From NCBI GenBank assembly GCA_951812975.1, contig CATOTC010000001.1, forward strand, positions 1,644,001 to 1,708,000: 64,000 bases of DNA, given 5' to 3'. Numbering within the stretch: position 1 is the stretch's first letter; the number at the start of each line of letters is the position of its first letter. This document shows positions 30,801-58,739 of this stretch, piece after piece. Under the pieces are notes generated by a model, which did not search any database, was not told the origin of the DNA, and saw nothing but the letters and a program-made list of their open reading frames with translations. The translations under genes were made by a program, and so were the position numbers. The stretch comes from an uncultured Acidimicrobiales bacterium (GTDB lineage: Bacteria > Actinomycetota > Acidimicrobiia > Acidimicrobiales > Aldehydirespiratoraceae).

Positions 30801-30815
30801 CGCGAGTACTGGGTT

Positions 30816-32030: not shown

Positions 32031-32065
32031 AATCGGAGATTCTGATGCACCGCTGCGCAATCGGC

Positions 32066-32084
32066 TGTTTCGTTGACCGGAACG
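32066..32084. promoter_or_regulatory. Palindromic operator-like site, copy 2 (TGTTTCGTTGACCGGAACG)
   Basis: Same 6-N7-6 layout followed by nnGTTTCG, upstream of CDS 32159. Confidence 0.55.
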
Positions 32085-32158
32085 ACGTTTCGCTATAGAG
32101 TCGCAGCAGGTTTGCGGCAAAGCGATCCGCGACAAAGGCGAATTCTCGGAGGGAACCC

Positions 32159-32893: not shown

Positions 32894-32894
32894 T

Positions 32895-39267: not shown

Positions 39268-42054
39268 GTGCCTTTGTTCGACATCTCCGGGTTCGACATA
39301 TCCGGCCCGCTGCTGCTGCTGGGCTCGATCTTCGGCATCGGTTACGCCCTGCTGGGCATCGGCTTGGTGCTGGCCTACCGATCCAGCGGCTTCATCAACT
39401 TCGCGCACGGCTCGATCGGCCTGGTTGCCGCCTCGATGATGTCGGTCGTGGTCAACGACTACGGCGTGCCCTACTGGCTCGGTTTCGTCGGAGCGCTGAT
39501 CGTGGCGGCTCTGCTGGCTGCGGGCGTGGAATCATTCGTGGTTCGCAAGCTGTCGGCGGCCCCCAAGGTCCTGTCGATGGTCGCCACCCTGGGTGCTGCC
39601 CAAGCGCTGCTGCTGCTGGCTCTTTCGTTCTCCAAGGGCGGCCTGGGGGGCGGCAGCTTCCCGCAGCCTCCGTTCTTCCCGGAGTTCGACCTCACCGTCT
39701 ACGTCTCGCCCTCCTCGACAGCACTGCTCTGCCTGTCGCCGCTGGTGGTGGCCGGGCTCTATGTGTTCTTGCAGCGCAGCCGGTACGGCCTGGCGATCCG
39801 GGGCGCCGCGGCCAATCCCGACTCGGCGACGCTGGCAGGGGCCGACCCGCGGCACATGGCGATGCTGTCGTGGGCCCTCGCGGGAGCCATCGCCGCGTTC
39901 GCGGCGATGCTGATCATCGGCAACCAGTCGACTGTGACCGCCGATGCGTTGGGTCCCGACTTCATCGTGCGCGGCCTGGCGGTGGCCGCGTTGGCGCGCT
40001 TCGCCAACCTGCCAGCGGCATTGGCCTCCGGGCTGGGAATCGGGATCGTCGAGCAGATCCTGGCCTCCAACCCCGAAGCCACCGGCTGGTTCGAAGTGGC
40101 ATTGTTCGTACTGATCCTGCTCGGAGTGGCGCTTCAGGTGCGTTCGGGTCGTGAACAGCCCGAACGCTGGTCGAGCCTGGCGCCGAACCGCCGGCTGCCC
40201 GATTCGTACCGCGACGTTTGGCTGATCCGGAACCTGGCCTGGGTGACCGGGGCTGTCGGCGTGGTCGTTGCGCTCGTGGTTCCGCTGCTGATGAGCAATC
40301 GTTCGGCGTTCGTGTTGTCGACCATTGTCGCCTTCGCCACCATCGGCATCTCGGTCAGCTTCCTGACTGGTCTGGCCGGTCAGCTCTCGCTGGGGCAGGT
40401 CGCCTTCGCAGCGATCGGTGCTGTCGTTGGAGTTCGGGTTGCCACCGAGACCGGCAGCCTGATCCTGGGGCTGCTGTGCGGCGGGATCACCGCGGCGTTG
40501 GTGTCTGCGGCGGTGGGGTTGCCCGCTCTGAGGGTGCAGGGTCTGCTTCTGGCGATCGCCACGCTGGCCTTCGCCCTGGCGACGTTCAGTTGGCTGCTGC
40601 GGCAGGACTGGGCCTTCGGCGCGGGGCTGTCGTCGCGGCCGGTCAGCGTGGTGGGCATCGATCTCGGCACCTCGCGCAGGTTCTATTTCGCGGCTCTGCT
40701 GACGTTCGTGATGGTGCTTGCCATTGCCCATGTGCTGCGTCGTTCGTCTTTCGGCCGGTCGCTCATCGCGGTCCGCGACAACGCCCCTGCGGCTCGGGTG
40801 CTCCAGATCGCTCCGCGTCGCCTGCTGTTGGCCGCCTACGGATTCTCGGGATTCGTCGCCGGGGTCGGCGGGGTGGTCCTGGCGATGAGCAACACGTTCG
40901 TCTCGCGCAGCATCTTCACCCCGAGCGACAGCATCAACGTTGTGTCGTTGGCTGTCATCGGCGGCCTCTCGGAGCTGACCGGGCCTCTCCTCGGGGCTGC
41001 CTACCTGATTGGTATCCGGGAGTTCTTCGACCTTGAGCTGTCGGCGCTGGCCGGGCTCAACGCGGCGTGGTTGATCCTGATCCTCGAACAGCCGCGCGGC
41101 CTGCACGGTCTGCTGAGCACGACCCGCGGCAACCTCATCGACCAGATCGCCCGGTTGCACGGTATCGACCCCGTTGCCGCCCGGTCAGAACAAAGCGACG
41201 TTGAAGCCGGCTCGACGGTGGTGACAGTCGCCCCCACTGAGCACCCCAGACCCGCCGACGATGTGATGCTGGAAGTGCGCGGCATCAGCAAGCGGTTCGG
41301 TGACCTGGTTGCTGTAGACGATGTGTCGTTGCAGGTCCGCGCCGGCGAGACGCTGGGGTTGATAGGACCCAACGGCGCGGGCAAGACAACCCTGTTCGAG
41401 CTGGTCAGCGGGTATCTGCGTGCCGATGCCGGCACAGTGGTCTTCGACGGTGCAGACATCACCCGCCTGCTACCGGAGGCTCGCAGCCGAGCGGGTCTGG
41501 TGCGCTCGTTCCAGAACGCCTCTTTGTTTCCCACGATGACCGCTCGAGACATCATCTTCCTGGCCAACAAACGAGCCGCGGGACACAGTCTTGTGGTCGG
41601 CGGATCGGCAGCCGAACGCCGAATCGAGGATGAAACCTCCGAGACGCTGGCGATGTTCGGTCTCAGTGGGTTGGCTGACCAGCCCGTGAGCCTGTTGTCG
41701 ACGGGCACCCGCCGCCTGGTCGAGTTGGCGGCCAACGTCGCCCTTCGGCCCAGGCTGCTGCTGATGGACGAACCCTCGGCCGGCATCGCCCAAGCCGAGA
41801 CGGAAGCACTGGGGGCAGTGATCACACAGATCCGCGACGCCTACCAGATGACCCTGGTGGTGATCGAGCACGACATGCCGCTGCTGAGCTCTGTCTGTGA
41901 CCGGTTGGTCGCCATGGAGACTGGTTCCGTCATCGCCGAGGGCACCCCGAGCGAGGTCCAAGCCGACGCCGCCGTGGTGCGCAGCTACCTCGGAGGCGAC
42001 CTGACGGCCATAGCCCGCAGCGGCTCCGCGGCCGGCAGCGAAGGTGAGCGCTAG
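39268..42054 (+). CDS. LivH-LivM-LivG fusion (two permease domains plus ABC ATPase)
   Basis: N-terminal LivH-like GLVLAYRSSGFINFAHGSIG; mid LivM-like SFLTGLAGQLSLGQVAFAAIGA; C-terminal LIGPNGAGKTTLFELVSGYLRADAG, LLSTGTRRLVELAANVALRPRLLLMDEPSAGIA. Confidence 0.92.
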   Translation: MPLFDISGFDISGPLLLLGSIFGIGYALLGIGLVLAYRSSGFINFAHGSIGLVAASMMSVVVNDYGVPYWLGFVGALIVAALLAAGVESFVVRKLSAAPKVLSMVATLGAAQALLLLALSFSKGGLGGGSFPQPPFFPEFDLTVYVSPSSTALLCLSPLVVAGLYVFLQRSRYGLAIRGAAANPDSATLAGADPRHMAMLSWALAGAIAAFAAMLIIGNQSTVTADALGPDFIVRGLAVAALARFANLPAALASGLGIGIVEQILASNPEATGWFEVALFVLILLGVALQVRSGREQPERWSSLAPNRRLPDSYRDVWLIRNLAWVTGAVGVVVALVVPLLMSNRSAFVLSTIVAFATIGISVSFLTGLAGQLSLGQVAFAAIGAVVGVRVATETGSLILGLLCGGITAALVSAAVGLPALRVQGLLLAIATLAFALATFSWLLRQDWAFGAGLSSRPVSVVGIDLGTSRRFYFAALLTFVMVLAIAHVLRRSSFGRSLIAVRDNAPAARVLQIAPRRLLLAAYGFSGFVAGVGGVVLAMSNTFVSRSIFTPSDSINVVSLAVIGGLSELTGPLLGAAYLIGIREFFDLELSALAGLNAAWLILILEQPRGLHGLLSTTRGNLIDQIARLHGIDPVAARSEQSDVEAGSTVVTVAPTEHPRPADDVMLEVRGISKRFGDLVAVDDVSLQVRAGETLGLIGPNGAGKTTLFELVSGYLRADAGTVVFDGADITRLLPEARSRAGLVRSFQNASLFPTMTARDIIFLANKRAAGHSLVVGGSAAERRIEDETSETLAMFGLSGLADQPVSLLSTGTRRLVELAANVALRPRLLLMDEPSAGIAQAETEALGAVITQIRDAYQMTLVVIEHDMPLLSSVCDRLVAMETGSVIAEGTPSEVQADAAVVRSYLGGDLTAIARSGSAAGSEGER

Positions 42055-42189: not shown

Positions 42190-42609
42190 CTAAGAAGCTG
42201 GATTCATCCCGAGAATGACCAATAGGGCCTCCACACGGCCCTTGATGTCGTCCCGAATGGGCCGCACTGCCTCAATGGAGCGCCCAGCGGGGTCGTCCAG
42301 TTCCCAATCCTCGTAACGCTTGGTGGGGTAGACGGGGCAAGCATCTCCGCAGCCCATACTCACGATCACGTCGGCGGTTCGGGCCATTTCATCGGTCCAC
42401 AGTCTGGGGTGCTCTGCGGAGATGTCGATTCCCTCCTCGGCCATGGCCGCGACTGCCACCGGGTTGGTCTCGGTACCCGGGTTTGAACCGGCGCTGAACA
42501 CCTCAACCCGGTCCCCGGCGAGATGGCGGAGGAAACCGGCCGCCATCTGGGAGCGCCCGGCGTTGTGAACACACAGGAACAGAACCCCGGGCCGGTCCGA
42601 GGGGCTCAC
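42190..42609 (-). CDS. arsC: ArsC-type low-molecular-weight phosphatase/arsenate reductase
   Basis: VLFLCVHNAGRSQMAAGFLRHLAGDRVEVFSAGSNPG; start GTG 42609, alternative in-frame ATG at 42681. Confidence 0.85.
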   Translation of the reverse strand: MSPSDRPGVLFLCVHNAGRSQMAAGFLRHLAGDRVEVFSAGSNPGTETNPVAVAAMAEEGIDISAEHPRLWTDEMARTADVIVSMGCGDACPVYPTKRYEDWELDDPAGRSIEAVRPIRDDIKGRVEALLVILGMNPAS

Positions 42610-42683
42610 CGTCAGGCGTCCTTGACCCCGACGAACAGCTCCGAAGAGATCGACGAGAACCCCCACGAAGTCGAGGTTCATCG

Positions 42684-43490
42684 TCAGGCGTCCTTGACGT
42701 CGACGAACAGGTCGCGTTTGCGGAACGCCGCGGTCATGAACCGGGCGAAAGCCTTGCGACGGGTGAGCCACACCACGCGGGCGCCGGACTTGTCGGCGGC
42801 GAGGATGTGGTCGGCCAGCCAGGGGGTGACGGTGTGGACCTTGTCGCCGAGAATGTTGAAGATCTTCTTGGACTTCTCCCACTGTTCTGAGGTGAGGTCG
42901 TAGTCGCCGGTGAGCAGGTCGGTCACGACGATCCCCGGCGAGACAGTGCAGATCTGCACAGCAGTGTCGGCGGTGTCTTTGCGCAGGGCCTTCTGCAGGT
43001 AGCGCACCGCACGCTTGGTCGCGCCGTAGGCCGCCATGCCGGGTTGTGTGGCGCCGTCGGACCCGAACCCCTCGGTGTTCCAGACCTGCCCGTGGTCCTG
43101 GCGCACCATGTTGGAGACCGCGGTCTTGCTGGCCAGCAGCGTGCCCGTGAGGTTGGTGTCGACCAGCGCGGCAAGTTCATCGTCGCTCTGTTCCCACAGA
43201 GGTTCACGCCCGATGCTGACCCCGGCGTTGTTGATCCATATGTCGACCCCGCCGAAAGCCTCTGCGGCGTGGTCCCACAGTTCTTGGAGCTGTCCGGGGT
43301 CGGTGATGTCGCAGGCCCTGCCACAGACCTTGGACTCCCCGTAGTACTCGCCGAGTTCAGCCACCACCGCCGCCACGCTTCCGGCTGAGCGTCCACTGAC
43401 GGCCACCTGGCATTGGCGCTTCAGGAACTCGCGGGCCAATCCGTTGCCGATCCCCCTGGTGCTCCCCGTGATCACGATGCGCTTGCCCAT
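42684..43490 (-). CDS. SDR-family reductase resembling chlorophyll b reductase (NYC1/NOL)
   Basis: ITGSTRGIGNGLAREFLKRQ...VDIWINNAGVS...FGSDGATQPGMAAYGATKRAVRYLQKAL...TVSPGIVVTDLLTGDYD...KKIFNILGDKVHTVTPWLADHI. The GSTRGIG, DIWINNAG, GSDG, AAYGATKR and SPGxVxTDLL strings resemble plant NYC1/NOL as recalled. Confidence 0.8.
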   Translation of the reverse strand: MGKRIVITGSTRGIGNGLAREFLKRQCQVAVSGRSAGSVAAVVAELGEYYGESKVCGRACDITDPGQLQELWDHAAEAFGGVDIWINNAGVSIGREPLWEQSDDELAALVDTNLTGTLLASKTAVSNMVRQDHGQVWNTEGFGSDGATQPGMAAYGATKRAVRYLQKALRKDTADTAVQICTVSPGIVVTDLLTGDYDLTSEQWEKSKKIFNILGDKVHTVTPWLADHILAADKSGARVVWLTRRKAFARFMTAAFRKRDLFVDVKDA

Positions 43491-43529
43491 TGAATCCCTT
43501 TCGGTTCAGACTTTAGGGGAGAGGCGGGT

Positions 43530-44492
43530 TCAGCGCCGTCTCCAGTGGTTCACCAGACGGTGCTCGACGAGGTGCTCCAGAGTGGTGGTCGCCGTCCGCC
43601 CCAGGCTTGTGGCGACGAAAGCGGCGATGAGGTCGCCGAGCAGTGCCCGGACTGCGGGATCGGCATTGACAGGATCAACCTCGAGGAAGGTACGGCCGCT
43701 GGTGGTGTCAAGCGGCCAACAGATTGCGAAATGGCCCGCGTCGGTCAACTCGACCAGCCATGAGTCTCCGTGGTCGCGTGCGATGCCCTCGTCGAAGGTT
43801 CGCCTGATGGGGTCGTGGACCGCGTCGTGCGTGGTTGAGCGGTAGCGGTCGCTGCTTGCTGCGATGACCCCGTCGGCAGTCCCTGCCAGCAGCATCACCG
43901 GCACTTCGGCGGGTGCTGCCACCACAGCACTCTCGCCGTGTCCCAGGGTGGCAGCGGTCATGGTGTGCGCGCCGTAGGTGAACACCGCTTTCAGGCCCGG
44001 TACCCAGGCCGGGTCGCTGTTGTGCAGCGCCACGGTGCCACCGGCTGAGTGGCCTCCGAGGACCACACTGCCGAGGTCCAACAGCCCGGTTACGGGGCTG
44101 TCGTCGTGCCCGGCGCCGTTGAGACGGTTCAGCAGCGGTTCGAGAACCGTGGACGAAGGCCGGGTGCCGATCGTGTCGGGGAGCAGCGCGGTCATGTCGA
44201 TGCCGGGGGTGATGCCCCGGCCCGCAGGCCCGAGCGATCCGACAGCGGTGTAGGTCACCACGCAGATTCCGTCGGCCACGAGTCGGTAGGCGAGCCAGCG
44301 GTATCCGTCCGGGGTCACGTTGATCCCCGGCATCATCACCACAACCGGCCAGGGATCGGGCGTTTGGATCGGCGGGACGCGCCCCGTCAACCGAGCTTCT
44401 GTGAACCGTTGATCGTCGCCGGGGTAGTACAACGTGCCCACCGCTGCGTCTTCGTCGGCCTCAAACGCGAAGTGCCACCCGCGAACGATCAT
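43530..44492 (-). CDS. Alpha/beta hydrolase (chlorophyllase/dienelactone-hydrolase-like)
   Basis: VVVMMPGINVTPDGYRWLAYRLVADGICVVTY; nucleophile elbow LGGHSAGGTVAL; AGHF. Confidence 0.75.
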   Translation of the reverse strand: MIVRGWHFAFEADEDAAVGTLYYPGDDQRFTEARLTGRVPPIQTPDPWPVVVMMPGINVTPDGYRWLAYRLVADGICVVTYTAVGSLGPAGRGITPGIDMTALLPDTIGTRPSSTVLEPLLNRLNGAGHDDSPVTGLLDLGSVVLGGHSAGGTVALHNSDPAWVPGLKAVFTYGAHTMTAATLGHGESAVVAAPAEVPVMLLAGTADGVIAASSDRYRSTTHDAVHDPIRRTFDEGIARDHGDSWLVELTDAGHFAICWPLDTTSGRTFLEVDPVNADPAVRALLGDLIAAFVATSLGRTATTTLEHLVEHRLVNHWRRR

Positions 44493-44552
44493 GATTCAGC
44501 CTAGAACGTGCGCGGATTGAAAAATTGTCGGTGCGTCGAGACCTGTTGTCTT

Positions 44553-44681
44553 CCGCTCTTGTTCACTACGCGTGCCTCCCGCTCTTGTTCGCTGCGCTCA
44601 CGGGCCGCGAGGCCGCGGGCGGGCCGCTCGGGCCACGGCCTCGTTCGGTCGCGGCCGTGTGCGGATCATTCCGCTCGGCCT
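44553..44681 (-). repeat. ~130-bp intergenic repeat, copy B (inverted relative to copy A)
   Basis: Reverse complement aligns over its whole length with 42056-42188, with small gaps. Confidence 0.82.
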
Positions 44682-44686
44682 CTGTT

Positions 44687-44705
44687 GGTTCCGCTCAGAG
44701 GAACG
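44687..44705. promoter_or_regulatory. Palindromic operator-like site, copy 3 (GGTTCCGCTCAGAGGAACG)
   Basis: Followed by cgGTTTCAT; upstream of CDS 44745. Confidence 0.65.
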
Positions 44706-44744
44706 CGGTTTCATTAAGTGCTCCGGGGACTCTACGATTGTGCC

Positions 44745-45200
44745 ATGAGCGAACAGAAAAGCTACGGCCCCGCTTCAGACAAGCCCTACCAGTGTTTCAT
44801 GGGGCGCTGGGAGGGGCTGTGCAAGAGCTTCACCCCCGAAGGCGAGTTCCTCGAATCCAGCGCGGTGCACATGGACGTCTACTGGCTCGACGACCACACC
44901 TGGCACCTGCACGAACACTTCGAGAACCTCTACGGAGTAGGGGAGACCATCTTCGACACGCCCATCGGAGTCGAAGGCAGACGGTGCTTCGCCGACAGCG
45001 AACAGATCAGCCTCGAAGGCGCCGAACTCACGCCCTACAACTACGTTTTCACCATCGACAGCAGAGTCAGCAACACGATCGTCTACAACAACCACTACTT
45101 CCTGGATCCCGACACCCGCCGCATCATCACCCACAAAGTGCGTGACGGGAAGACCATCCTGTTCCAGATCCAGGACTTCGCCCGGATCCAACGGCCATGA
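44745..45200 (+). CDS. Lipocalin-like/DUF3598-type protein
   Basis: MGRWEGLCKSFTPEGEFLESSAVHMDVYWLDDHTW...HEHFENLYGVGETIFDTPI; shares layout with CDS 46012 and 47659. Confidence 0.55.
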   Translation: MSEQKSYGPASDKPYQCFMGRWEGLCKSFTPEGEFLESSAVHMDVYWLDDHTWHLHEHFENLYGVGETIFDTPIGVEGRRCFADSEQISLEGAELTPYNYVFTIDSRVSNTIVYNNHYFLDPDTRRIITHKVRDGKTILFQIQDFARIQRP

Positions 45201-46015
45201 TCGTTCAACGAGCCCCCGGCGGGGTTGCTGACGCACCGCACTTCGTGATCGCAATGCATCAGCACACCTCCTTCGCAGGATCGCTCGCCGCGAACTTCGG
45301 CAACGACGACTTCGCCGGGCTGGAACCTGCTGAGCCGATGCAGTTCATCGTCGACCACCACGACCAGGGATGGGCCGACCTGGATGCGGCCGCCCCTCAG
45401 GACCCGGCGACGGGACTGCCATACAACCTCACAGCCACTCCGTTGCCGCAGATCGTCGCCACCTCGGCGGGTTCGCCGGCATTCAACGATGCCCACCATC
45501 CGTTCAGCGGCATCATCTCGTCGATGCACACCTACGGCCTGTATCGGGGACGCTACGGGCTGAGCGACAAGATCTTCCTCGACAGCATCGGCGAAGAGCT
45601 GCGCCCTGAAGTCGATGCCATGCTGGCTGCAGAAGAGGACCGTCAGAGCCGTCTCAAGGAACAGCTGGCGGTGAGCGACCCCGACCATGCAAGCGACGAG
45701 TACCTGTTCCACGCCTACAAGCAGCTCCAGTTCTTCGACACGCTCTCGCTCTACATGCACATGTCCCCCGAGGGCGAGAGAGGCGAATCTGAGTTCCACA
45801 ACGTGCCCCGGGCCGTCGGCGACGATGTGACCGTCTCAGTCGTGGAGCTGCCCGGCGCGGTCTATGCACTGGACCCGTATCCCTTCGCTCCCGATCAACT
45901 CGAATTGGCTACAGAGGGCCGATACCTCGCCCCGCAGCCGGCAGGCACCGACCTCGCCGCGATGCTGGCAACGACGCCGATCGAGGCGCAGACGGTGCAT
46001 CTGGTCCGGGCGTGA
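45197..46015 (+). CDS. DUF3891-like protein
   Basis: HQHTSFAGSLAANFG...MQFIVDHHDQGWADLDAAAPQDPATGLPYNL; ATGA overlap with the upstream gene. Confidence 0.7.
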   Translation: MIVQRAPGGVADAPHFVIAMHQHTSFAGSLAANFGNDDFAGLEPAEPMQFIVDHHDQGWADLDAAAPQDPATGLPYNLTATPLPQIVATSAGSPAFNDAHHPFSGIISSMHTYGLYRGRYGLSDKIFLDSIGEELRPEVDAMLAAEEDRQSRLKEQLAVSDPDHASDEYLFHAYKQLQFFDTLSLYMHMSPEGERGESEFHNVPRAVGDDVTVSVVELPGAVYALDPYPFAPDQLELATEGRYLAPQPAGTDLAAMLATTPIEAQTVHLVRA

Positions 46016-46914
46016 GCAGTGGGTCGTTCTCCCGGGGTGTCGGTGAATGGATCGGCGCTGCTGAGGTTTACGACGCAGAGGGCCGCTTCGCTGGATTGGG
46101 CCGCGACACCCGGTCAGTGCAGGCAGACGACCAGGCCGGGACGGTAACCGTAGAGGTCACCTTCGACGGGCCGTTCTCGCTGTCAGGCGAGTACACGATT
46201 GTTGACCACGGTTCGTATCGGACCTATGAGGGCCCTCTCAACATCGGCTACGCCGAGGCTCTGGGCGACGGCCTGGTAGCGGCTCACAACTACTGGCCGG
46301 ACCTCGGTCTGTCACAGCGGTTCTTTCTGATGGTGATGCCCGACGGGTCACGCCAGTTGTCTCTGGCGTTGCTGAGCCGGGGCGAACAGCTTCGCTGGAC
46401 AGTCGTCGGGGAATATCAGCGCCGACTCGACGAGTCACGCCCGGAACCGCCCCCGCCCGAACCGATGGATCCATCGCAACTGCGAGACGACCCCACAGCG
46501 GGTCGGGGAGAGCTCCTGTTGCTGCGCTCGGGGTGCTGGTCGGGTCGTCTGCAGCGCCTCGATGACGACTGCAAGCCTTCGAATGCGGCCGACTACACCG
46601 AATCGGTTGTCGGCCAGGACGGTTCTTGGGAAGTTGAACTGTCGGGTGCCGACTACTCGTCGGGTCTGTCATTCACCCTGTTGAGCGACGGTTGGACGGC
46701 TTGGACTCCGACCGGCAGCCTGACGGGAAGCGGAATCCTCAGCGGCGGCCGGGGCTTCAGCGGCCAGTTCCACCATCAGGGATCTGGGTTGCGCATGTGG
46801 CGCCGCGAAGCGGCATCGCGAGACGGCACCACCAAAGCGGTACTGCACATCTGGTACCGCGGTGAGGAGCGGCTCGGAGCGGCATACGGCGTCCTGGCCT
46901 TCGATCCGGCATGA
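46012..46914 (+). CDS. DUF3598/lipocalin-like protein
   Basis: GEWIGAAEVYDAEGRFAGLGRDTRSV...NYWPDLGLSQRFFLMVMPDGSRQLSLALLSRGEQLRW; GTGA overlap. Confidence 0.65.
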   Translation: MSSGSFSRGVGEWIGAAEVYDAEGRFAGLGRDTRSVQADDQAGTVTVEVTFDGPFSLSGEYTIVDHGSYRTYEGPLNIGYAEALGDGLVAAHNYWPDLGLSQRFFLMVMPDGSRQLSLALLSRGEQLRWTVVGEYQRRLDESRPEPPPPEPMDPSQLRDDPTAGRGELLLLRSGCWSGRLQRLDDDCKPSNAADYTESVVGQDGSWEVELSGADYSSGLSFTLLSDGWTAWTPTGSLTGSGILSGGRGFSGQFHHQGSGLRMWRREAASRDGTTKAVLHIWYRGEERLGAAYGVLAFDPA

Positions 46915-47645
46915 ACAGTGATCCCGTTAGGACTGGTTCAATGAGTACTGACCCCGTTGGTACTGGCCCAATGGGCACTGGTTACACCAGCGGCGGCGAC
47001 ACGTTCAGTGGGGCCTGGTTGGTGACCGAATACGTCCACGACCCCGACGGCACGTTCCGGGGAACCGTCGCCCAGCGCCGCCGTGTCGAACAGGTCGACG
47101 AGGCGCGCCTGCGGGTGACCCAGCAGTGCGAACCGTCGGCCGCTCTCCACGGCCACGCCATGGCCGCGTTCGCCGGTGAATGGGTGTTCGATCTCGAAGT
47201 GGTCGGCGACCAGCGCCATTATTTGGGCCCCGATGTGGTGGGCTCAGCCACGCAATGGCAACCCGGTGCGATGACCGGGCAGGGCATGTGGCCCCGATTC
47301 GGATACGAGTTCGAGTCCTACAGCGTGCTGGTAGCCCCCGACCGTCAACTCACCGGCGGGTTCTTCTCGCTCGCCGGACGGTCCGTGGCAGACATCGTGG
47401 GAGTGGCCGTCCCCGAAACCGCCGGTATCGAGCCTCGCTTGGACCTGACGGCCCCGCCGCCCGTCGCCGGCGACGAATGGCAACTGCACCGAGCGGTCGG
47501 CCCGCTGCTGGTAGCGACCGCCCGTCCCACGCCGTCACAGCGCCGCCGCCTCTGGACGATGCACGATCCGGCCGGAGCCGCCACAGTCGCCCTTACTGAG
47601 ACTGTCGACGGGGGAGCACGCGCGGTCGCGGTGGCAGTCAGCTGA
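46911..47645 (+). CDS. Lipocalin-like protein of the same cluster
   Basis: FSGAWLVTEYVHDPDGTFRGTVAQRRRVEQVDEARLRV; ATGA overlap with the upstream gene; duplicated N-terminal start repeat. Confidence 0.5.
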   Translation: MNSDPVRTGSMSTDPVGTGPMGTGYTSGGDTFSGAWLVTEYVHDPDGTFRGTVAQRRRVEQVDEARLRVTQQCEPSAALHGHAMAAFAGEWVFDLEVVGDQRHYLGPDVVGSATQWQPGAMTGQGMWPRFGYEFESYSVLVAPDRQLTGGFFSLAGRSVADIVGVAVPETAGIEPRLDLTAPPPVAGDEWQLHRAVGPLLVATARPTPSQRRRLWTMHDPAGAATVALTETVDGGARAVAVAVS

Positions 47646-47658
47646 GCGGCGACATCCC

Positions 47659-48597
47659 CTAGTCCGATGACCAGATGAGAGGGCCGAACACGATGTCGGT
47701 CATGCGGTCACCGGAGTAGAGCTTCCAGGCCACAGCCATCGTGTAGCTGCGGTCGAGGATGAACTCCCGCCCCTTGACCTTGAACGCCTCGCTGGAGTGG
47801 TGCTGCGATGTGTACAGCGCCCGACCGTAGGCGATGGCGTTGCCCCAGAGATCGGGGCCGTCATAGGTGTAGCGGTTGCCGCCCGAGCGGGTCCGGGTGT
47901 AGCTCAACGACCGGTCGAAGGCCCCCGACATGTCCAACGTGCAGTTGGCGCGCACCAAGTCGATGGGGTCGTTGCGCAAGCGCACGTCGACTGAACCCCG
48001 GCGCTGTTGGTCGGCCCCGAACACCTCGCATTGGCCGGTCCATTCGCCACCGACCCGGTCCGGCACGGTGTGCGGCCATGAGGCCAGCTCGCGTTCGGCC
48101 TCGATGTGGCCGTCGATCCACTCCTTGGTATCGGCGTTGGTGTCGTAGTCGTGGGCGTTGAGGTACACCCCGTTGAACACCGAGAAGAGGGTCGGCCCCT
48201 CATACAGCAGCGACGAATAAACCTGGGTCACGCCGTCCGGCAGGATCTGGTTCATGGTGTTGAGATCGGCCCGCCATCCCGGAGAGTAGTAGTGCGAGTC
48301 CACCAGCGACCCGTAGGGATGGCCTGCCCCGTAGAAGTCGGGGCCCCGATAGATGCGGTCGTTGCCCTGGTCGTCTACTCCGAACTCGAAGTCGCGGATC
48401 TCGAAGCGGTTGCGCAGCGGCCCGGTGTTCATGAAGTTGCACTGCATCCAGTAGGTGACCTCGCCGTCGGCGAACACGCTGGCCCGGCTGACCTTGTTGA
48501 ACCCGGTGTGGCTTCCGTCGGCATCGAAGACCGACGGCAGGCCGTACCACTCACCGGTGATGCGCTGTTGCCATTCAGAGGCTTCGGTTTCGCTCAT
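47659..48597 (-). CDS. DUF3598/lipocalin-like protein
   Basis: ITGEWYGLPSVFDADGSHTGFNKVSRASVFADGEVTYWMQCNF...GGEWTGQCEVFGADQQRRGSVDVRL: two lipocalin-like halves. Confidence 0.55.
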   Translation of the reverse strand: MSETEASEWQQRITGEWYGLPSVFDADGSHTGFNKVSRASVFADGEVTYWMQCNFMNTGPLRNRFEIRDFEFGVDDQGNDRIYRGPDFYGAGHPYGSLVDSHYYSPGWRADLNTMNQILPDGVTQVYSSLLYEGPTLFSVFNGVYLNAHDYDTNADTKEWIDGHIEAERELASWPHTVPDRVGGEWTGQCEVFGADQQRRGSVDVRLRNDPIDLVRANCTLDMSGAFDRSLSYTRTRSGGNRYTYDGPDLWGNAIAYGRALYTSQHHSSEAFKVKGREFILDRSYTMAVAWKLYSGDRMTDIVFGPLIWSSD

Positions 48598-48706
48598 TGG
48601 TGATCTCCGTTCTCGGTCGGGTCGGGTTTGGTCGAGCTGGGTGTGGTTGGGCGGGTTGGGTGCGGGCTGTTTCGGTGCGTATGGGTTGGGTTGGGCGGGT
48701 TGGCAC

Positions 48707-49426
48707 TCAGGTGCGGGCGGCGGTTTTGAGGCTGGTCTGGATCTCGGTGCTCATCTCTGCACCGAGAAGTTGGTCCACGCGGGCCCACACGGGATCGACC
48801 TCCGGACTGAAGACGGCTTCACGGTTGCGATGGTCACGGCGGTCCAGGTCCTTGGGGGTCGCGCCGCCGAGGGCATCGTCGGGCACACCCTCGCCCACCA
48901 AATCGAGCCAGTGGTCGCGGTAGTGGGCCACGGCACCGAACACGCCCGCGAAGCCCTCCTCATCAGCCCGATGGGCCAGCATCCAAGCCGACATCAGCTG
49001 CCATTGTCGGGGTGACAGGTGCGCCGCGGTGAGCCCGTCCAGTTGCAGGACCGCGTCGTGGGTCTCGGTGAGCGGGCCGTAGCAATGGTCGATGTAGGCC
49101 AGGTTCGCGCCCGGGTCGAGGCGGGGGATCAAATCCAGGTGGAACGCATAGTGGGGACCGGCCAACACTGAGTCCACCGTGAAATGGGGGACCGGGCTGT
49201 GGGGCGGCGTGAAAGCGAAACACATGTGGCTGTCGAGACCGAACGCCTCCACCGTCATGCCGACATAGACCAACTCGGCCACCCCGTCGCGCGACAGCAC
49301 GCGATGGGAACCGACCGACGAACCGTCCAGTGCCGAAACCAGAGGTGTGCTCACAGTTTCGGCCAGGTCGAGGCGATTCTCGATCGCCTCGACGGTCCCG
49401 AGGCACAGATCAGCCGACAGGCTCAT
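48707..49426 (-). CDS. Bilin reductase/red chlorophyll catabolite reductase-like protein (tentative)
   Basis: Internal start MSLSADLCLGTVEAIENRL; PHFTVDSVLAGPHYAFHLDLIPRLDPGANLAYIDHCYGPLTE resembles the 'PxF..D.......LDL.PR.D' core of the ferredoxin-dependent bilin reductase/RCCR group. Confidence 0.5.
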   Translation of the reverse strand: MSLSADLCLGTVEAIENRLDLAETVSTPLVSALDGSSVGSHRVLSRDGVAELVYVGMTVEAFGLDSHMCFAFTPPHSPVPHFTVDSVLAGPHYAFHLDLIPRLDPGANLAYIDHCYGPLTETHDAVLQLDGLTAAHLSPRQWQLMSAWMLAHRADEEGFAGVFGAVAHYRDHWLDLVGEGVPDDALGGATPKDLDRRDHRNREAVFSPEVDPVWARVDQLLGAEMSTEIQTSLKTAART

Positions 49427-49451
49427 CGCTCGCCCCCCACCTGATCGGCCC

Positions 49452-50618
49452 TCATTGGGGGGACCCGGTGCCGGTGTGCGGCGCCGCGGCCTCAGCGACG
49501 GTGGGGAAGACCCAGGCATTGGCCAACTCGGGGTCACCGGCTCGTGCCGGCGAAGGAATGACTGCAGCGGCCCGCATAGCCGTTTCGTCCGAGAGCACTT
49601 CAAGTCCCCAGCCTCTGTTGATCTGCTCGGAGCGCCAGCGACGGTAGGCCAACTGGATCGAATCGGACTTGACATGAAGCTCGGCCGACAGGTCGAAGGG
49701 CAACAGCTCGGGACGCTGCCCCTCCACGGTCGGCTGGTCCTCCAAGAAGATCTTGATCGTGCGCTGCATGGAGTTCTTGTCGGCCCAACCGCCTGTGAAG
49801 AACGTGCGCAGCATGGCGAACTTCGAGACTGTGACGTGCTCGTCGCGGGGGACCGCCGCGGTGAAGATGCGGATCTCGCCCATCGGCAGGCGCACGATCA
49901 GCAGCGACACGTTGGGGGGATAGAAGCCGGTGGTGGTGCTGACCGGGGGGCGGTCCTTCTTGGAGATGAACTTCCACAGACCGGATGGACGGGGAGGCTC
50001 AAGGTCGACTGTGGCAGTCACCGAGGTCAGAAATCCGTCGTTGCGCTCCTCTTGGAGTTCGAACTCCTCGATCTCAGGCTGGTCGGCGTTGCCGAACGAA
50101 CCGGAGTGCACGAACGGTGTGTGGGCGATGTCCACGGCGTTCTCCAATACCCGGTCGTAGTTGGCGTTCCAGGTGAACTCCCCGAATATGGCCCGGTAAC
50201 CCGCCGCTTTGGCCTCGGTGTGCTCTTCGAGCCCGTCGAGCACAGGCACCGGCGGACGCTGCTCGGCAGGAAGGTCACCCAGGAATACCCACACGAAGCC
50301 GTAGCGCTCCACACAGGGGTAGGTGTCGATCCGGGCCTTGCGGGGGATGGGAAGGTCCTGACGGTTCGCCGGGATCTCCACGCACGCACCGTCGGAGCCG
50401 TAGCGCCATCCGTGGTAGGGGCATTGCACACAGTTGCCGACCACTCTGCCCCCAGCCAGTGAACCGCCGCGGTGCACGCAGAGGTCGGACTGGGCATTGA
50501 CGGTTCCATCGGGACTGCGCCACAGCACCAGGTCGTGGCCGTGCACCCGGGCGAGAACGGGTTCAGCAGCGACCTCCGCACCGAATTCGACTGCGTACCA
50601 GTGGTTCTTTATGAACAT
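49452..50618 (-). CDS. Rieske [2Fe-2S] oxygenase, pheophorbide a oxygenase (PaO)-like
   Basis: Rieske CVHRGGSLAGGRVVGNCVQCPYHGWRY; mononuclear Fe site ENAVDIAHTPFVHSGSFG. Confidence 0.82.
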   Translation of the reverse strand: MFIKNHWYAVEFGAEVAAEPVLARVHGHDLVLWRSPDGTVNAQSDLCVHRGGSLAGGRVVGNCVQCPYHGWRYGSDGACVEIPANRQDLPIPRKARIDTYPCVERYGFVWVFLGDLPAEQRPPVPVLDGLEEHTEAKAAGYRAIFGEFTWNANYDRVLENAVDIAHTPFVHSGSFGNADQPEIEEFELQEERNDGFLTSVTATVDLEPPRPSGLWKFISKKDRPPVSTTTGFYPPNVSLLIVRLPMGEIRIFTAAVPRDEHVTVSKFAMLRTFFTGGWADKNSMQRTIKIFLEDQPTVEGQRPELLPFDLSAELHVKSDSIQLAYRRWRSEQINRGWGLEVLSDETAMRAAAVIPSPARAGDPELANAWVFPTVAEAAAPHTGTGSPQ

Positions 50619-50630
50619 GTGATTCTTCCT

Positions 50631-51443
50631 TCAGGCAGGTCTCGGCAGGTGTCGGTCGCCGCCCCACAGGGCCCGCACCAGACGGTCGGTCATCTCCTGG
50701 CCGAAGAACCGTACCGCCATCACGTTGGCCGGGTCTCTTTCGGCGATGGTGCGCCGTCGGGCCAGGTCGTCCGCGGCAAGTTGTGCTCGCCGCCGCTGCG
50801 GCACGGGTTCGGCCTCGTCGACCCATTGCAGCCACTGGTCGACACGGCGGTGGGCGAGTTCGCCCACCTGGTCCAGCCGTGCTTCGTCGTGGGTGCGGTT
50901 CGGGGTGGTGAAGCAGATGGCCACGTCGCTGAGCGCCGCTCGGATGTACAGGGCCCTGGAGGTGAACGGTGCCAGCCCCTCGTCTGCTCGCAGCGCCAGG
51001 AACTCCTCGTTGAGCGGTTCGTAGTACTTGTCCAGCGCTTCGGTGTCGAGCATGAGGTCGGAGCGGGGGTTGTAGTCGATGTAGAACCACAGGTCGGGCA
51101 GGGTTCCCCAGGCGATACCGAGATGTGGCACATCGATATGGGGGCCGAGCCATGCGGTTACGTGCATGTTGGTGAAACCGAGGGGCGGGTTGCCGATCCA
51201 GGAGTGGATCAGCCAGTCTATTTCGGGCCCGCTGTAGGCGGCGAGCCGGCCCGAAGGGTGCTCCATCTCGCCCCGATACGACTCCAGGTCGGCGGTGCTG
51301 GGGTCTCGGGTCAGTTCGAACCGGGCTTCGATCTTGGCCATGACCTCGCAGGTGATCGACCACAGCCGGTCGAAGGTTGCCGTCGCGTCTGTCGGGACTC
51401 GCTCGTCGAAGATGTCTTGGACACCCTTCAACGTCTCGCGCAT
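50631..51443 (-). CDS. Red chlorophyll catabolite reductase (RCCR)-like protein
   Basis: PHIDVPHLGIAWGTLPDLWFYIDYNPRSDLMLDTEALDKYYEPLNEEFLALR...SRALYIRAALSDVAICF resembles the RCCR core (LDL.PRKDL...YYE...LYxRxxxS). Start MRETLKGV at 51443, because the longer track start would cover the palindrome. Confidence 0.6.
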   Translation of the reverse strand: MRETLKGVQDIFDERVPTDATATFDRLWSITCEVMAKIEARFELTRDPSTADLESYRGEMEHPSGRLAAYSGPEIDWLIHSWIGNPPLGFTNMHVTAWLGPHIDVPHLGIAWGTLPDLWFYIDYNPRSDLMLDTEALDKYYEPLNEEFLALRADEGLAPFTSRALYIRAALSDVAICFTTPNRTHDEARLDQVGELAHRRVDQWLQWVDEAEPVPQRRRAQLAADDLARRRTIAERDPANVMAVRFFGQEMTDRLVRALWGGDRHLPRPA

Positions 51444-51471
51444 TGGTTCTCCGATATCGTCAGAGGAAGGT

Positions 51472-51490
51472 TGTTCCGTCAAGCGGAACA
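51472..51490. promoter_or_regulatory. Palindromic operator-like site, copy 4 (TGTTCCGTCAAGCGGAACA)
   Basis: Exact 6-bp arms; lies between divergent CDS 50631(-) and 51578(+); followed by tcGTTTCG. Confidence 0.75.
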
Positions 51491-51577
51491 TCGTTTCGTT
51501 CGGCTCGACAGTAGGGCTGAGCGGAGACGAGTGTCAACAATCCACACTGCCGACAACATCAGGGAACTGCCACGACA

Positions 51578-52393
51578 ATGAGCCGCACCACTCTTTACGT
51601 CCCGGGCGACCGGGCTGACCGCTTCGCCAAGGCGCTTGCCTCGGGAGCTGACGCCATCATCTGTGACCTCGAAGACGCGGTTGCCGAAACAGCCAAGGCA
51701 ACGGCCCGTGAAGCAGTCTCGAAGTGGCTGGGGGCCAACTCCGGCGCAGCGGCATGGGTGCGGGTCAACAACCGTCCCGACCTGCTCGAGGACGACGCGG
51801 CCATGGTTCGTTCGCTGGTGGCCGACGGGGTGGATTTCGCGGGGGTGGTGGTTCCCAAGGCCGACAGGACTGTCTGCGCGGTCGACTTCGCGGGCAGCCC
51901 CGTAATGGCCCTCATCGAGTCGGCGGTCGGTGTGAGAGACATCTATGAGATAGCGGCAAATCCCGCGGTAGTGCGTCTGGCTCTGGGAGAGGCCGACCTG
52001 GCCGCCGACATGAGCATGGAACCGTCCGCGGACGCCCTTGAGATGTGGCCGATCCGCACCCGAGTGGTGGTCGCATCGGTCGGCTCCGGACTCAATGCCC
52101 CCTGCGGACCCGTACCCACCGACCTCAACGACGACGAAGCGCTGGTCGCCTCCAGCGAATCGCTGCGCCGCCACGGATTCGGTGGTCGTTCGGTGATCCA
52201 CCCCAAGCAGGTGGAGGCGGTCAACGCAGCATTCACTCCATCAGCCGATTCCATCGCCCACGCGGAGAAGGTCGTGGCAGCTTATGAAGCAGCGGTCGAA
52301 GAAGGTCGCGCAGCACTGGTTCTCGACGGCGAGTTCATCGACACCGCAGTCGTGCGGCAAGCCCGAGCAGTTCTGGCTAGGACGCCGCGCTGA
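51578..52393 (+). CDS. HpcH/HpaI aldolase/citrate lyase beta-type (CitE-like) lyase
   Basis: TLYVPGDRADRFAKALASGADAIICDLEDAV; WVRVNNR; ALIESAVGVRDIYEIAANPAVVRLALGEADLAADM; GRSVIHPKQVE. Confidence 0.9.
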   Translation: MSRTTLYVPGDRADRFAKALASGADAIICDLEDAVAETAKATAREAVSKWLGANSGAAAWVRVNNRPDLLEDDAAMVRSLVADGVDFAGVVVPKADRTVCAVDFAGSPVMALIESAVGVRDIYEIAANPAVVRLALGEADLAADMSMEPSADALEMWPIRTRVVVASVGSGLNAPCGPVPTDLNDDEALVASSESLRRHGFGGRSVIHPKQVEAVNAAFTPSADSIAHAEKVVAAYEAAVEEGRAALVLDGEFIDTAVVRQARAVLARTPR

Positions 52394-54125
52394 ACCTCTC
52401 GCTGAGCACGGCGGAAGCTTGCCAGGGGCGACCTCCTACCAGGTCCGTGTCCTTGGAGACCTCTCGATTCAGTGCTCGACCGGGGTGCAGGGTAGCGATC
52501 AACAACCCGTCCGTTGGTTCGGCCCGAATGGTTGTCGGAGTGTTGATCGTGCCGTCGTAGGCGCTCGATCGCTGAGGGTTCCACAGCGAATCAGCGGGTG
52601 GGTCGAGCAGCACCGCAGCACCCAGCGAACCTGCCGGACCGCATGCCGCGAGGCTCACTCGGTTCTCGGCTGCCCGCTCTACCAGAGCCAGATCGCACTC
52701 CCAGGCGCGTTCAGGCTGCCAACACACCGCAACGATGTGGGCGCCGGCAACAGCTGCCAAACGCACCGCTTCGGGATAGCGGTGATCGTCGGCGACCAGC
52801 ACCGCCAGATCACCGAACGGCGTCCGGTACAGGTCTACGGAATCGCCGAGCCTGGTGACCTGCGGGTAGCGATCACTGCGGTGGATCTGCCGTTGCTCGT
52901 GCACTAGGCCCTGCGCGGACCAGACCCGGCCCCTGTGCTGGGTGTGGCCGTGTTGGTCCTGGTCGCTGTGCTGGGTGTGGCCGTGTTGGTCCTGGTCGCT
53001 GTGCTGGGTGTGGCCGTGTTGGTCCTGGTCGCTGTGCTGGGTGTGGCCTCTGTGTTGGCCCTCACCGTGTTGATCTTCTCCCAGGGCCGTGGTCACCACC
53101 AGGACCCCCTCGGGGATAACGGGCGGTACCGGTGTCAGCTCCGGCAAGATCACCAGCGATGCCCCCGAATCGAAGGCCTCGTCGATGAGTTCTGGATTGG
53201 TTCGGGCCCCAGGCACGCAGGCAACCCGCACCTCGTTGGCCAACCCGGAGACCGGCTGAACCGTATCGGCTTGCGCCAGCGGGGCGTACACCTTCGGGCG
53301 GCGCCCTGAGAGTCGCCCAGGATCAACATCGGAAAGGTCGACGTCGGCGATGACCACGGCCTCACCGGTCAGGGGCGCGATGGCCAACACCGTGCCGTCA
53401 GGACCGACGATCTGGCTCTCCCCGGCGCCGTTGAGAGTCTCGGGCGGCACGCCGAGCGCCTCGCTGAAGGCGCCCACTCGGTCGGGGGGCAACAGCGGGC
53501 CGACCTTGTTGGCAGCCACCACAAACACTCCGTTCTCGGCGGCTCGCACCGGAATGTGCAGTGCGGCCTCGTCCCGGGCGAACGAGTTGAGGTTGTTCAT
53601 CAACAGTCGGGCGCCCCGCACCGCCAGTGTGCGCGGTATCTCGAAGGTCACGCCGTCCATGCAGGAATACAGGCCGACGGGGCCGAAGCGGGTGTCGGTC
53701 ACGGGGTTCGCCCCTACACCGGCGCTCAGGAAGGCCCGTTCGTTGCCCATGAGCATCTGCTTGTCGGCAGTGGCTGCCAGGTTGCCGTCGGGGTCGAACA
53801 ACACTCCGGTCACAGTCACCCGATCATCGGGCTGGGGCATCGTCACGGCCAATGCGGCGTAGACGCCGTGCTCAGCGACCCGCCGAGCAAAAGCCTGCAT
53901 CCAGGGACCGTCTGCTGTTACAGCAACCGAGCGGCAGTGGGCGACGTCGTCGTAGACCGAGATGTGGTTGCAGAACTCGGGCAGCACCACGACCTCAGCG
54001 CCCTCAGAAGCGGCCGCATCGAGCATCCGCAGGCAGGTGCCCAGGTTCTCGTCGAGGTCACAGCCCGTGGCGAACTGTACTGCCGCCACGCTCAAGCGGT
54101 CCGTCACCACAGGCGGTTCAGGCAT
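52377..54125 (-). CDS. Double nitrilase-superfamily (carbon-nitrogen hydrolase) protein; C-terminal half lacks a recognisable triad
   Basis: First half has E (VVLPEFCNH), K (ADKQMLMGNE), C (LYSCMDGVTFE); second half has LPELTPV but VADDHRYPE at the expected Cys region. Confidence 0.78.
   Translation of the reverse strand: MPEPPVVTDRLSVAAVQFATGCDLDENLGTCLRMLDAAASEGAEVVVLPEFCNHISVYDDVAHCRSVAVTADGPWMQAFARRVAEHGVYAALAVTMPQPDDRVTVTGVLFDPDGNLAATADKQMLMGNERAFLSAGVGANPVTDTRFGPVGLYSCMDGVTFEIPRTLAVRGARLLMNNLNSFARDEAALHIPVRAAENGVFVVAANKVGPLLPPDRVGAFSEALGVPPETLNGAGESQIVGPDGTVLAIAPLTGEAVVIADVDLSDVDPGRLSGRRPKVYAPLAQADTVQPVSGLANEVRVACVPGARTNPELIDEAFDSGASLVILPELTPVPPVIPEGVLVVTTALGEDQHGEGQHRGHTQHSDQDQHGHTQHSDQDQHGHTQHSDQDQHGHTQHRGRVWSAQGLVHEQRQIHRSDRYPQVTRLGDSVDLYRTPFGDLAVLVADDHRYPEAVRLAAVAGAHIVAVCWQPERAWECDLALVERAAENRVSLAACGPAGSLGAAVLLDPPADSLWNPQRSSAYDGTINTPTTIRAEPTDGLLIATLHPGRALNREVSKDTDLVGGRPWQASAVLSERFSAAS
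52935..53047. repeat. In-frame 33-bp tandem repeat (three full copies plus a partial), encoding HTQHSDQDQHG
   Basis: gtgctgggtgtggccgtgttggtcctggtcgct at 52935, 52968 and 53001, plus a partial copy. Confidence 0.95.
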
Positions 54126-54218: not shown

Positions 54219-55001
54219 TCAGTTGACAGGGCGGGCTCCGAGCTTTGTGGACAGCGCGCGGGTTACCTCCACCACCGCAGCGGCGGAGCTCGCGATCTCG
54301 TCGCGGAAACGCTCGATCGGCCCGCTGACGCTGATCACCGCGACAGGCGCCTGGTTGTGGTCGAGTATCGGTGCGGCAACCGAGCCCGCGTCGTGCTGAC
54401 GCTCACCGAGCGAGACTGCAAAGCCCTGCTGGCGCACACGTCCCAGTTCGGCGCGCAGCTCGTCGACAGTGACGATGGTGGCCTCAGTCATGGCGTCGAG
54501 TGAGTTCTCGGCCAGATAGAGGTCAATCTCGCCTTCGCTGAGCCAAGCCAGGAACGCTTTGGACGAAGCACCGGCATGCAGCGGGAACGACCCGCCGATC
54601 GGCACGGTCATCTTCACCTCACGCGGAGGAGTGATCTGGGCAACGTAGACGCGCCGGTTGCCGTGGCGCACCGACAGAGTCGCCGTCTCCTCGGTGGCGG
54701 CGCTGAGTCTGCGCATCTCGTCGAGGGCCAGGGTCCGAATGTCGAGCTGATCCCGGTAGGCGGTGGCCAACTCGAGCACCGCGGGCCCGAGTGCGTAGCG
54801 CCGGGTCTCCGGGTCGGTGGTCAGAAGGTCGCGTTCACGCAGCGAGGTGAGAATCCGATGCACCACCGCCTTGGACACGCCGAGCTCCTTGGAGATCTCG
54901 GTGACACCGAGGCTTCTCTGTGATCTGGCGAACAGGAACAGCACGTCAGCGGCCCGCTCGATAGCGGCAACGCTGCGGCTGGTGCCCGTGACTGAGTCCA
55001 T
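54219..55001 (-). CDS. IclR-family transcriptional regulator
   Basis: AAIERAADVLFLFARSQRSLGVTEISKELGVSKAVVHRILTSLRERDLL wHTH; C-terminal SVAAPILDHNQAPVAVISVSGPIERF. Confidence 0.95.
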   Translation of the reverse strand: MDSVTGTSRSVAAIERAADVLFLFARSQRSLGVTEISKELGVSKAVVHRILTSLRERDLLTTDPETRRYALGPAVLELATAYRDQLDIRTLALDEMRRLSAATEETATLSVRHGNRRVYVAQITPPREVKMTVPIGGSFPLHAGASSKAFLAWLSEGEIDLYLAENSLDAMTEATIVTVDELRAELGRVRQQGFAVSLGERQHDAGSVAAPILDHNQAPVAVISVSGPIERFRDEIASSAAAVVEVTRALSTKLGARPVN

Positions 55002-55010
55002 TGATTCTGC

Positions 55011-55029
55011 TGTTCCGCTCAGAGGAATG
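55011..55029. promoter_or_regulatory. Palindromic operator-like site, copy 5 (TGTTCCGCTCAGAGGAATG)
   Basis: 10 bp upstream of the iclR start; spacer GCTCAGA identical to the site at 44687. Confidence 0.7.
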
Positions 55030-55113
55030 AGGTTAGCGGATGTTCGCTGGTGAGGCCCATGCGCGCTGGGAACGGTTGCCAACATACATATCTTTGCGGA
55101 ACACTAGGGCCGA

Positions 55114-55132
55114 TGTTCCCCTGGGAGAAACA
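55114..55132. promoter_or_regulatory. Palindromic operator-like site, copy 6 (TGTTCCCCTGGGAGAAACA)
   Basis: 6-N7-6 palindrome just upstream of CDS 55142, with extra half-sites GCGGAACA (55096) and GTTCCGC (55135). Confidence 0.6.
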
Positions 55133-55141
55133 ACGTTCCGC

Positions 55142-58599: not shown

Positions 58600-58739
58600 C
58601 CGAACTGGCAATCACCGGTCCCACCGTGCTCCGTCAGGACACAGGCGAGGCCGGCCTCGTCGATACTGGCTCGACCGCCGAACTTTCGGCACGGTTCGCC
58701 CGTCTGAAAAGAACTCACCTGCCAGAGGTACGCTCATGA
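58596..58739 (+). pseudogene. Truncated duplicate of the start of the downstream imidase gene (47-aa ORF)
   Basis: MTELAITGPTVLRQDTGEA... vs MTELIITGATVVRPDAGVA... at 58736; TGA overlaps the downstream ATG (ATGA). Confidence 0.6.

Follow-up and report, generated by a model that had tools for sequence, protein, structure and literature searches.

A 64,000-nucleotide stretch of the genome of an uncultured Acidimicrobiales bacterium (contig CATOTC010000001.1, positions 1,644,001 to 1,708,000; here called the window) contains a conserved gene block of ∼33 kb (window ∼30054–63138) in which a Rieske oxygenase gene sits between the genes of two RCCR-superfamily reductases. We hold with moderate confidence that this block, carried by a non-photosynthetic actinobacterium, is a conserved catabolic island that would import and mineralise a tetrapyrrole-derived pigment, namely a bilin, a phyllobilin or a chlorophyll derivative. 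The protein families, the membership of both reductases in the RCCR superfamily, the linkage of the genes and the replacement of enzymes in relatives are direct results. The host genome is 3.0 Mb in size, and its nearest matches are metagenome-assembled genomes (MAGs) of Acidimicrobiia (Actinomycetota). A preliminary description of this DNA had drawn the locus at 42684–51443. That locus is real, and every open reading frame (ORF) listed for it is present with coding-type composition, but it covers only the middle of the block and misses about two thirds of it. Outside those limits lie the genes of an ABC transporter, a hydantoinase-like amidohydrolase, a maleamate-amidase-type protein, a hydratase, CoA-transferases and citramalyl-CoA/HMG-CoA-lyase-like enzymes.

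Reductase 1 (50631–51491, minus strand; most conserved start at 51443) matches PF06405, the family of red chlorophyll catabolite reductase (RCCR), with 62.2 bits against a gathering cut-off of 24.9 (E = 6e-17), and a search of solved structures with its family profile returned Arabidopsis RCCR first (6e-22) and bilin reductases next. Reductase 2 (48707–49426, minus strand) gave no Pfam match when searched singly. Profile against profile, it aligns with coding sequence (CDS) 50631 (hhalign E = 5e-10), 21 of its 34 orthologues match PF06405, and its AlphaFold2 model (pLDDT 95.8) shows the alpha/beta/alpha sandwich fold shared by RCCR and the ferredoxin-dependent bilin reductases (FDBRs). The top nine PDB matches of this model were all Arabidopsis RCCR (E = 2e-11), followed by PcyA, PebA, HY2 and PebB. 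The RCCR-like and bilin-reductase/RCCR-like calls made earlier for these two genes are thus confirmed, and two RCCR-superfamily reductases are encoded in one operon. A tree including Arabidopsis RCCR had a branch too long for placement.

The two proteins differ at the positions of the catalytic acids. We take Glu154 and Asp291 of Arabidopsis RCCR to be the counterparts of the FDBR acid pair; the Glu lies exactly where expected in the chain sequence. Most FDBRs keep a pair of Asp residues, one sheet-side and one helix-side, of which both are essential in GtPEBB and the sheet-side Asp alone in PebA (PMC6755814). In reductase 2, Asp occupies both the Glu154 position (Asp85) and the 290/291 region (Asp211, near Asp291), each in 12 of 12 sequences; because it keeps both acids, its site looks like that of a more conventional bilin reductase. 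In reductase 1 the helix-side Asp (Asp237, in a DPAN motif) is found in all 32 members, aligned to Asp290 of the Asp290–Asp291 pair, and the Glu154 column holds Ala in 29 of the 32 (Ala111 in CDS 50631), with Glu in one cyanobacterial homologue only. Judged by these alignments, the protein recognised as a member of the RCCR family, reductase 1, is the one that diverges at the active site; it is conceivable that both would act jointly.

Among cyanobacteria, Scytonema hyalinum (L101, 10001–16786) has an RCCR homologue in which the Glu of position 154 is retained and which lies ∼4 kb from a hydantoinase-like gene (58% identical) and the gene of a small DUF3598-like-looking protein. Some Nostocales (L071, L080, L083) encode two RCCR homologues a few kb apart, with an unrelated ORF between them in L071.

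The intervening gene (49452–50618, minus strand) encodes a Rieske non-haem iron oxygenase of the VanA_C type. Its iron–sulphur ligands (Cys47/His49/Cys66/His69) and iron ligands (Asp163/His166/His171) are invariant in 12 orthologues; these CxH..CxxH and Asp-x2-His-x4-His sites are general to Rieske oxygenases and not specific to PaO. The preliminary description had correctly seen an oxygenase here but called it PaO-like (pheophorbide a oxygenase), an assignment rejected on its domains: the C-terminal domain is VanA_C (4e-27), and PF08417 (the PaO C-terminal domain) gave no match at E ≤ 1. Among proteins of solved structure, SxtT/SxtDIOX, NdmA and DdmC are closest to it. Furthermore, the protein has no Cys past residue 103 and hence no C-terminal CxxC, which we take to be a feature of plant PAO/TIC55. 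It shares its domain architecture with VanA, NdmA, DdmC and SxtT; unlike these enzymes, it forms a full-length conserved subfamily bound to RCCR genes.

To follow the linkage of these genes, we scanned 85,462 species genomes. RCCR genes turned up on 140 stretches, and 80 of these were retained (70 non-cyanobacterial, 10 cyanobacterial). Hosts include Acidimicrobiia, Nocardia, Nonomuraea, Actinoplanes, Streptosporangium, Streptomyces, Nocardioides, Anaerolineae, an Oligoflexaceae MAG and Nostocales cyanobacteria. Within 10 kb of RCCR, the non-cyanobacterial loci contained the Rieske gene in 66 of 70 cases and reductase 2 in 65. The lipocalin was present at 64 of them, the carbon–nitrogen hydrolase at 58, and the alpha/beta hydrolase and the short-chain dehydrogenase/reductase (SDR) at 54 each; these 70 loci are not independent, many coming from Nocardia or Acidimicrobiia. 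They span two phyla (Actinomycetota and Chloroflexota) with differing gene orders. The linkage exceeds chance, which bears out the conserved neighbourhood that the preliminary description had named as a check on its proposal. At the 10 cyanobacterial loci, RCCR stands mostly without the Rieske gene, reductase 2 and the other partners. PF06405 occurs in only eight of 61 near relatives and eight of 396 genomes sampled from the class, and RCCR is followed by the Rieske and reductase 2 genes in all 11 loci examined among Acidimicrobiia. Acidimicrobiia-type copies (80–84% identity) were also seen in two MAGs labelled Acidobacteria and Rhodospirillaceae (L036, L040), likely reflecting mislabelled bins or transfer.

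The limits of the island were set by synteny with three genomes from two genera other than that of the window. In G366 and G423 (one genus) and G017 (another), the gene order runs through the ABC transporter and flavoprotein genes to an Asp/Glu-racemase-type gene (window 30054), and at the opposite end, in G366 and G423, it continues past the second CoA-transferase to an isochorismatase-fold amidase (window 62491). The largely syntenic order and the matching ends in other genera give a unit of ∼33 kb. The RCCR operon of Nocardia and Nonomuraea is directly adjoined by the genes of the FAD mono-oxygenase, the acyl-CoA-dehydrogenase-type protein, the carbon–nitrogen hydrolase and the racemase-type protein, so their distant window counterparts (the flavoprotein and racemase-type genes at 30054–35512 and the carbon–nitrogen hydrolase) are part of the island.

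The alpha/beta hydrolase (43530–44492, minus strand), of a distant chlorophyllase/PETase type, itself scores under every Pfam cut-off and has no PF07224 (Chlorophyllase) match. The alpha/beta hydrolase call of the preliminary description was borne out through its orthologues, of which 21 of 23 match PF12740 and 14 of 23 match PF07224 weakly (best 1e-7); Ser149, Asp207 and His254 are invariant. The SDR (42684–43490, minus strand) belongs to PF00106 (1.6e-41), as proposed, and is a candidate NYC1/NOL-like enzyme with an unusual N-x-E-G-x-G-S-D-G...YGATKR motif. No close match to it was found in the PDB. Its profile scored 72–77 bits against provisional NOL/NYC1 fragment sequences and 19–27 against shorter segments of two generic PDB SDRs, the former match extending into a C-terminal region outside the generic SDR match; because the fragments were provisional and the controls were shorter, we treat the resemblance as a lead only. 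Between the transporter and the SDR, an arsenate-reductase/low-molecular-weight-phosphatase-like gene (42190–42882) is probably a local insertion, since it lies elsewhere in G423 (L110).

We also searched cluster-bearing genomes for partners of known pathways. Stay-Green (SGR, PF12638) was found in none of 19 such genomes, in line with the earlier remark that no stay-green-type Mg-dechelatase was recognised, and the same search was positive in eight of 199 Anaerolineae. In these 199 genomes, SGR (eight) and RCCR (five) did not overlap, counts too small to inform. Above-cut-off PF08417 was likewise found in none of the 19. Heme oxygenase was found in none of 12 cluster-bearing Acidimicrobiia, although the same search did detect it in five soil actinomycetes; supply of biliverdin by a heme oxygenase inside these Acidimicrobiia was therefore rejected, and biliverdin would need to be imported.

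At coordinates below the SDR, the island encodes an LIV-type substrate-binding lipoprotein (35807–37234, plus strand), a protein that joins a membrane domain to a LivF-type ATPase (37254–39263, plus) and a fused permease–permease–ATPase of an LIV-type ABC transporter (39268–42054, plus), all three included by synteny. The genes linked in Nocardia and Nonomuraea encode an FAD-dependent mono-oxygenase (30816–32030, plus), an acyl-CoA-dehydrogenase-family flavoprotein (34205–35512, plus) and an Asp/Glu-racemase-superfamily protein of the EutA/maleate-isomerase/AMDase type (30054–30800, plus). The catalytic Cys pair of the last is not conserved, the first position being Met or Ser and the second Cys being absent in some paralogues, and maleate isomerase was rejected for it. 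Within the same syntenic block (32159–34208), we noted a secreted protein that is anchored at its C terminus and weakly matches the neocarzinostatin domain, and a beta-propeller (SBBP) lipoprotein; the two possibly serve in surface capture of the substrate.

Of the four lipocalin-like proteins in the preliminary description, one is established by fold: the model of CDS 47659 (47659–48597, minus strand; pLDDT 93.7) is a double-barrel lipocalin matching the DUF3598 structure 2O62 and BFA1. For this protein, Foldseek gave E = 4e-8 and TM 0.56–0.64 against 2O62. The two-barrel fold is common to all three, but sequence identity is ∼10%. Two others (46012–46914 and 46911–47645, both plus) are its sequence paralogues, the former with a BLAST value of ∼1e-12. 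The fourth, a small single-barrel lipocalin-like protein (44718–45200, plus; likely start 44745), has a marginal DUF3598_N match (0.23) only, and a 72% identical orthologue in Anaerolineae. The DUF3891 protein (45197–46015, plus) was identified as described (7e-34) and is conserved.

At coordinates above reductase 1, a HpcH/CitE lyase whose closest counterpart is the citramalyl-CoA lyase RipC of the itaconate pathway (51578–52393, plus) is followed by a conserved tandem-domain carbon–nitrogen hydrolase, an amidase (52377–54125, minus), an IclR-family regulator (54219–55085, minus), a family III CoA-transferase nearest the succinate–glutarate/mesaconate types (55040–56332, plus), a PF04199 cyclase/amide hydrolase (56329–57153, plus), an MmgE/PrpD-family hydratase (57178–58599, plus), a hydantoinase/allantoinase-like amidohydrolase (58733–60199, plus), an HMG-CoA-lyase-family protein above the NCBIfam cut-off (60361–61266, minus), a second family III CoA-transferase nearest glutarate/mesaconate enzymes (61278–62474, plus) and the isochorismatase-fold amidase of the N-carbamoylsarcosine/maleamate amidase type (62491–63138, plus). 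Among the structure matches of the last are 3UAO and 4L07/4L08, which we take to be maleamate amidases. The ORF calls at 60196 (plus) and 62464 (minus) are antisense shadows of the HMG-CoA-lyase-family and isochorismatase-fold amidase genes. In the window genome, the linker of the carbon–nitrogen hydrolase carries a tandem His/Gln/Asp-rich repeat (QHGHTQHSDQD), and the catalytic Cys is apparently missing from its second hydrolase domain.

Enzyme swaps in relatives suggest what this back end might do. At locus L073, no hydantoinase was found within the 20 kb retrieved, and a caprolactamase-like pair is present; at the Anaerolineae locus L087, a LeuC/LeuD-type hydratase (LeuD/DmdB subfamily) lies downstream. 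These swaps keep lactam/imide opening and branched-dicarboxylate hydration and thereby point to a lower pathway from cyclic amides to methyl-branched dicarboxylates. Oxidised tetrapyrrole rings yield methylvinyl- and ethylmethylmaleimide and hematinic acid, which are of exactly this shape, and it is from this chemistry that we infer a tie between the lower pathway and tetrapyrrole ring fragments. The hydantoinase/caprolactamase-type, amidase, hydratase, CoA-transferase and lyase genes argue for full catabolism rather than detoxification as in plants.

From these families we propose a substrate, activities and an order of steps. The esterase and SDR would trim side chains, the Rieske enzyme would oxidise the pigment, and the two RCCR/FDBR-fold reductases would then reduce a linear tetrapyrrole, a ferredoxin whose gene lies elsewhere supplying the electrons; the DUF3598 lipocalins may bind or shuttle the hydrophobic pigment. 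In the back end, the hydantoinase-like enzyme, or the caprolactamase-like pair in some relatives, would open lactam/imide ring fragments, amidases would release ammonia, and the PrpD-type enzyme (LeuCD-type in Anaerolineae) would hydrate methyl-branched dicarboxylates. Finally, CoA-transferases would activate the products, and the RipC-like and HMG-CoA-lyase-like enzymes would cleave them to small acyl-CoAs and ketoacids, so that the ring fragments would enter central metabolism.

To our knowledge, tetrapyrroles are the substrates of every characterised member of the fold family: RCCR, the FDBRs and the more distant coproporphyrinogen oxidase. The joint occurrence of two such reductases, a Rieske oxygenase, a serine hydrolase and an SDR in a conserved neighbourhood makes a tetrapyrrole-directed pathway most likely. 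The DUF3598 fold of the lipocalin, the syntenic back end with its enzyme assignments, the IclR regulator, the LIV-type importer and the non-orthologous replacements that keep the chemistry also count in favour of the catabolic island. Other points weigh against it: lacking the sheet-side acid, reductase 1 may depart from normal FDBR-type catalysis; the racemase-type protein is without the maleate-isomerase Cys pair; no ferredoxin was noticed among the cluster genes; the usual cargo of LIV-type transporters is small polar molecules, not tetrapyrroles; and the back-end genes come from promiscuous families found in many other pathways. The lost acid would also suit RCCR-fold proteins recruited to a non-tetrapyrrole substrate, for example a pyrrole, lactam or hydantoin-like natural product, in an ordinary heterocycle degradation cluster; the LIV transporter and the hydantoinase, caprolactamase-like and carbamoylsarcosinase-type enzymes are of the kind usual for small cyclic amides. 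We nevertheless consider this unlikely, as reductase 2 retains both acids, the lipocalins and the esterase fit a large hydrophobic ligand, and we know of no member of the superfamily that acts on small molecules. A biosynthetic cluster for a modified tetrapyrrole or pyrrolic metabolite seems highly improbable: tailoring enzymes are often of the Rieske, SDR and flavoprotein kinds and many hosts are antibiotic-producing actinomycetes, but the CoA-transferases, RipC-like and HMG-CoA-lyase-like lyases, hydratases, amidases and importer are catabolic, and among the island genes none was recognised as building a tetrapyrrole.

Within the favoured catabolic reading, two narrower versions were weighed; both are sub-cases of it, and our confidence in them therefore overlaps with that in the whole. 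The preliminary description had envisaged a route for chlorophyll or related tetrapyrroles like the plant PAO/phyllobilin pathway, with an NYC1-type SDR, a chlorophyllase-type hydrolase, a macrocycle-opening Rieske enzyme and RCCR acting in sequence on chlorophyll or pheophorbide. The conserved neighbourhood supports a tetrapyrrole-directed route in general, and the genuine RCCR family member, the weak Chlorophyllase matches of the hydrolase orthologues and the SDR profile scores against the provisional NOL/NYC1 fragments speak for the plant-type version. Identity with the plant pathway is not supported, and we judge this version unlikely, because the Rieske enzyme is of the VanA_C class without PF08417 or a late Cys, the 19 cluster-bearing genomes searched gave neither SGR nor above-cut-off PaO, and Glu154 of plant RCCR is Ala in reductase 1. 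Alternatively, already linear bilins (biliverdin, phycobilins or plant phyllobilins) might be taken up from the environment, the Rieske enzyme hydroxylating or cleaving a linear substrate without opening a macrocycle. The importer, the two acids of reductase 2 and the absence of dechelatase and heme oxygenase from the genomes searched are consistent with this version, but a phytyl-esterase-like hydrolase and an NYC1-like SDR would have no obvious role on biliverdin, and we regard it as a possibility on the unlikely side.

The component families are known and their combination is new. With the plant pathway (NYC1/NOL, pheophytinase/chlorophyllase, PAO, RCCR), the island has in common an RCCR reductase, a Rieske oxygenase, a serine esterase and an SDR; it differs in its oxygenase class, in having two reductase paralogues and no SGR, and in its importer and a carbon and nitrogen recovery back end absent from plants. 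RCCR, FDBRs and coproporphyrinogen oxidase are all treated in PMC10151467, where RCCR-like sequences served as outgroup and heme oxygenase, globins, V4R and Fe-S proteins are encoded in pre-PcyA clusters. The island shares the reductase fold with FDBRs and these clusters, and reductase 2 keeps both carboxylate positions; unlike in pre-PcyA clusters, the four accompanying protein types were not recognised in the island. A maleamate-amidase-type protein, a RipC-like lyase and family III CoA-transferases recur in the nicotinate/maleamate and itaconate (RipABC) pathways, from which the island is set apart by its hydantoinase-like ring opener, an isomerase-like protein without the Cys pair and the lack of recognised pyridine-pathway enzymes. 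No description of the operon was found in the open-access literature; most subscription papers lay outside the search.

Chlorophyll and phycobilin are degraded in very large amounts each year, and we know of no microbial genes that complete this degradation. For bacterial Mg-dechelatase homologues, physiological relevance is stated as unknown (PMC8531759). Tentatively, the operon may represent a widespread, undescribed bacterial pathway mineralising chlorophyll- or heme-derived linear tetrapyrroles through paired RCCR-type reductases, a Rieske oxygenase of the VanA class and a lower pathway of the lactam/imide-to-citramalyl-CoA type; the reductase with and the reductase without the canonical sheet-side acid would then possibly act together. 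A conserved operon with two RCCR-type reductases bears on the origin of plant RCCR, which, if this proposal is true, would be a member of an enzyme family also found in catabolic operons of heterotrophic bacteria. Its presence in culturable actinomycetes (Nonomuraea, Streptosporangium, Actinoplanes) makes the question of pigment degradation directly testable.

Two features of the window lie beyond the conserved block. An integrase-core (IS481-type) transposase gene (28648–29808) is located just outside it, beside a ketopantoate-hydroxymethyltransferase-like gene (27611), and two very large ORFs of 1620 and 3830 amino acids with strong AT skew occupy the minus strand at 9404–26134.

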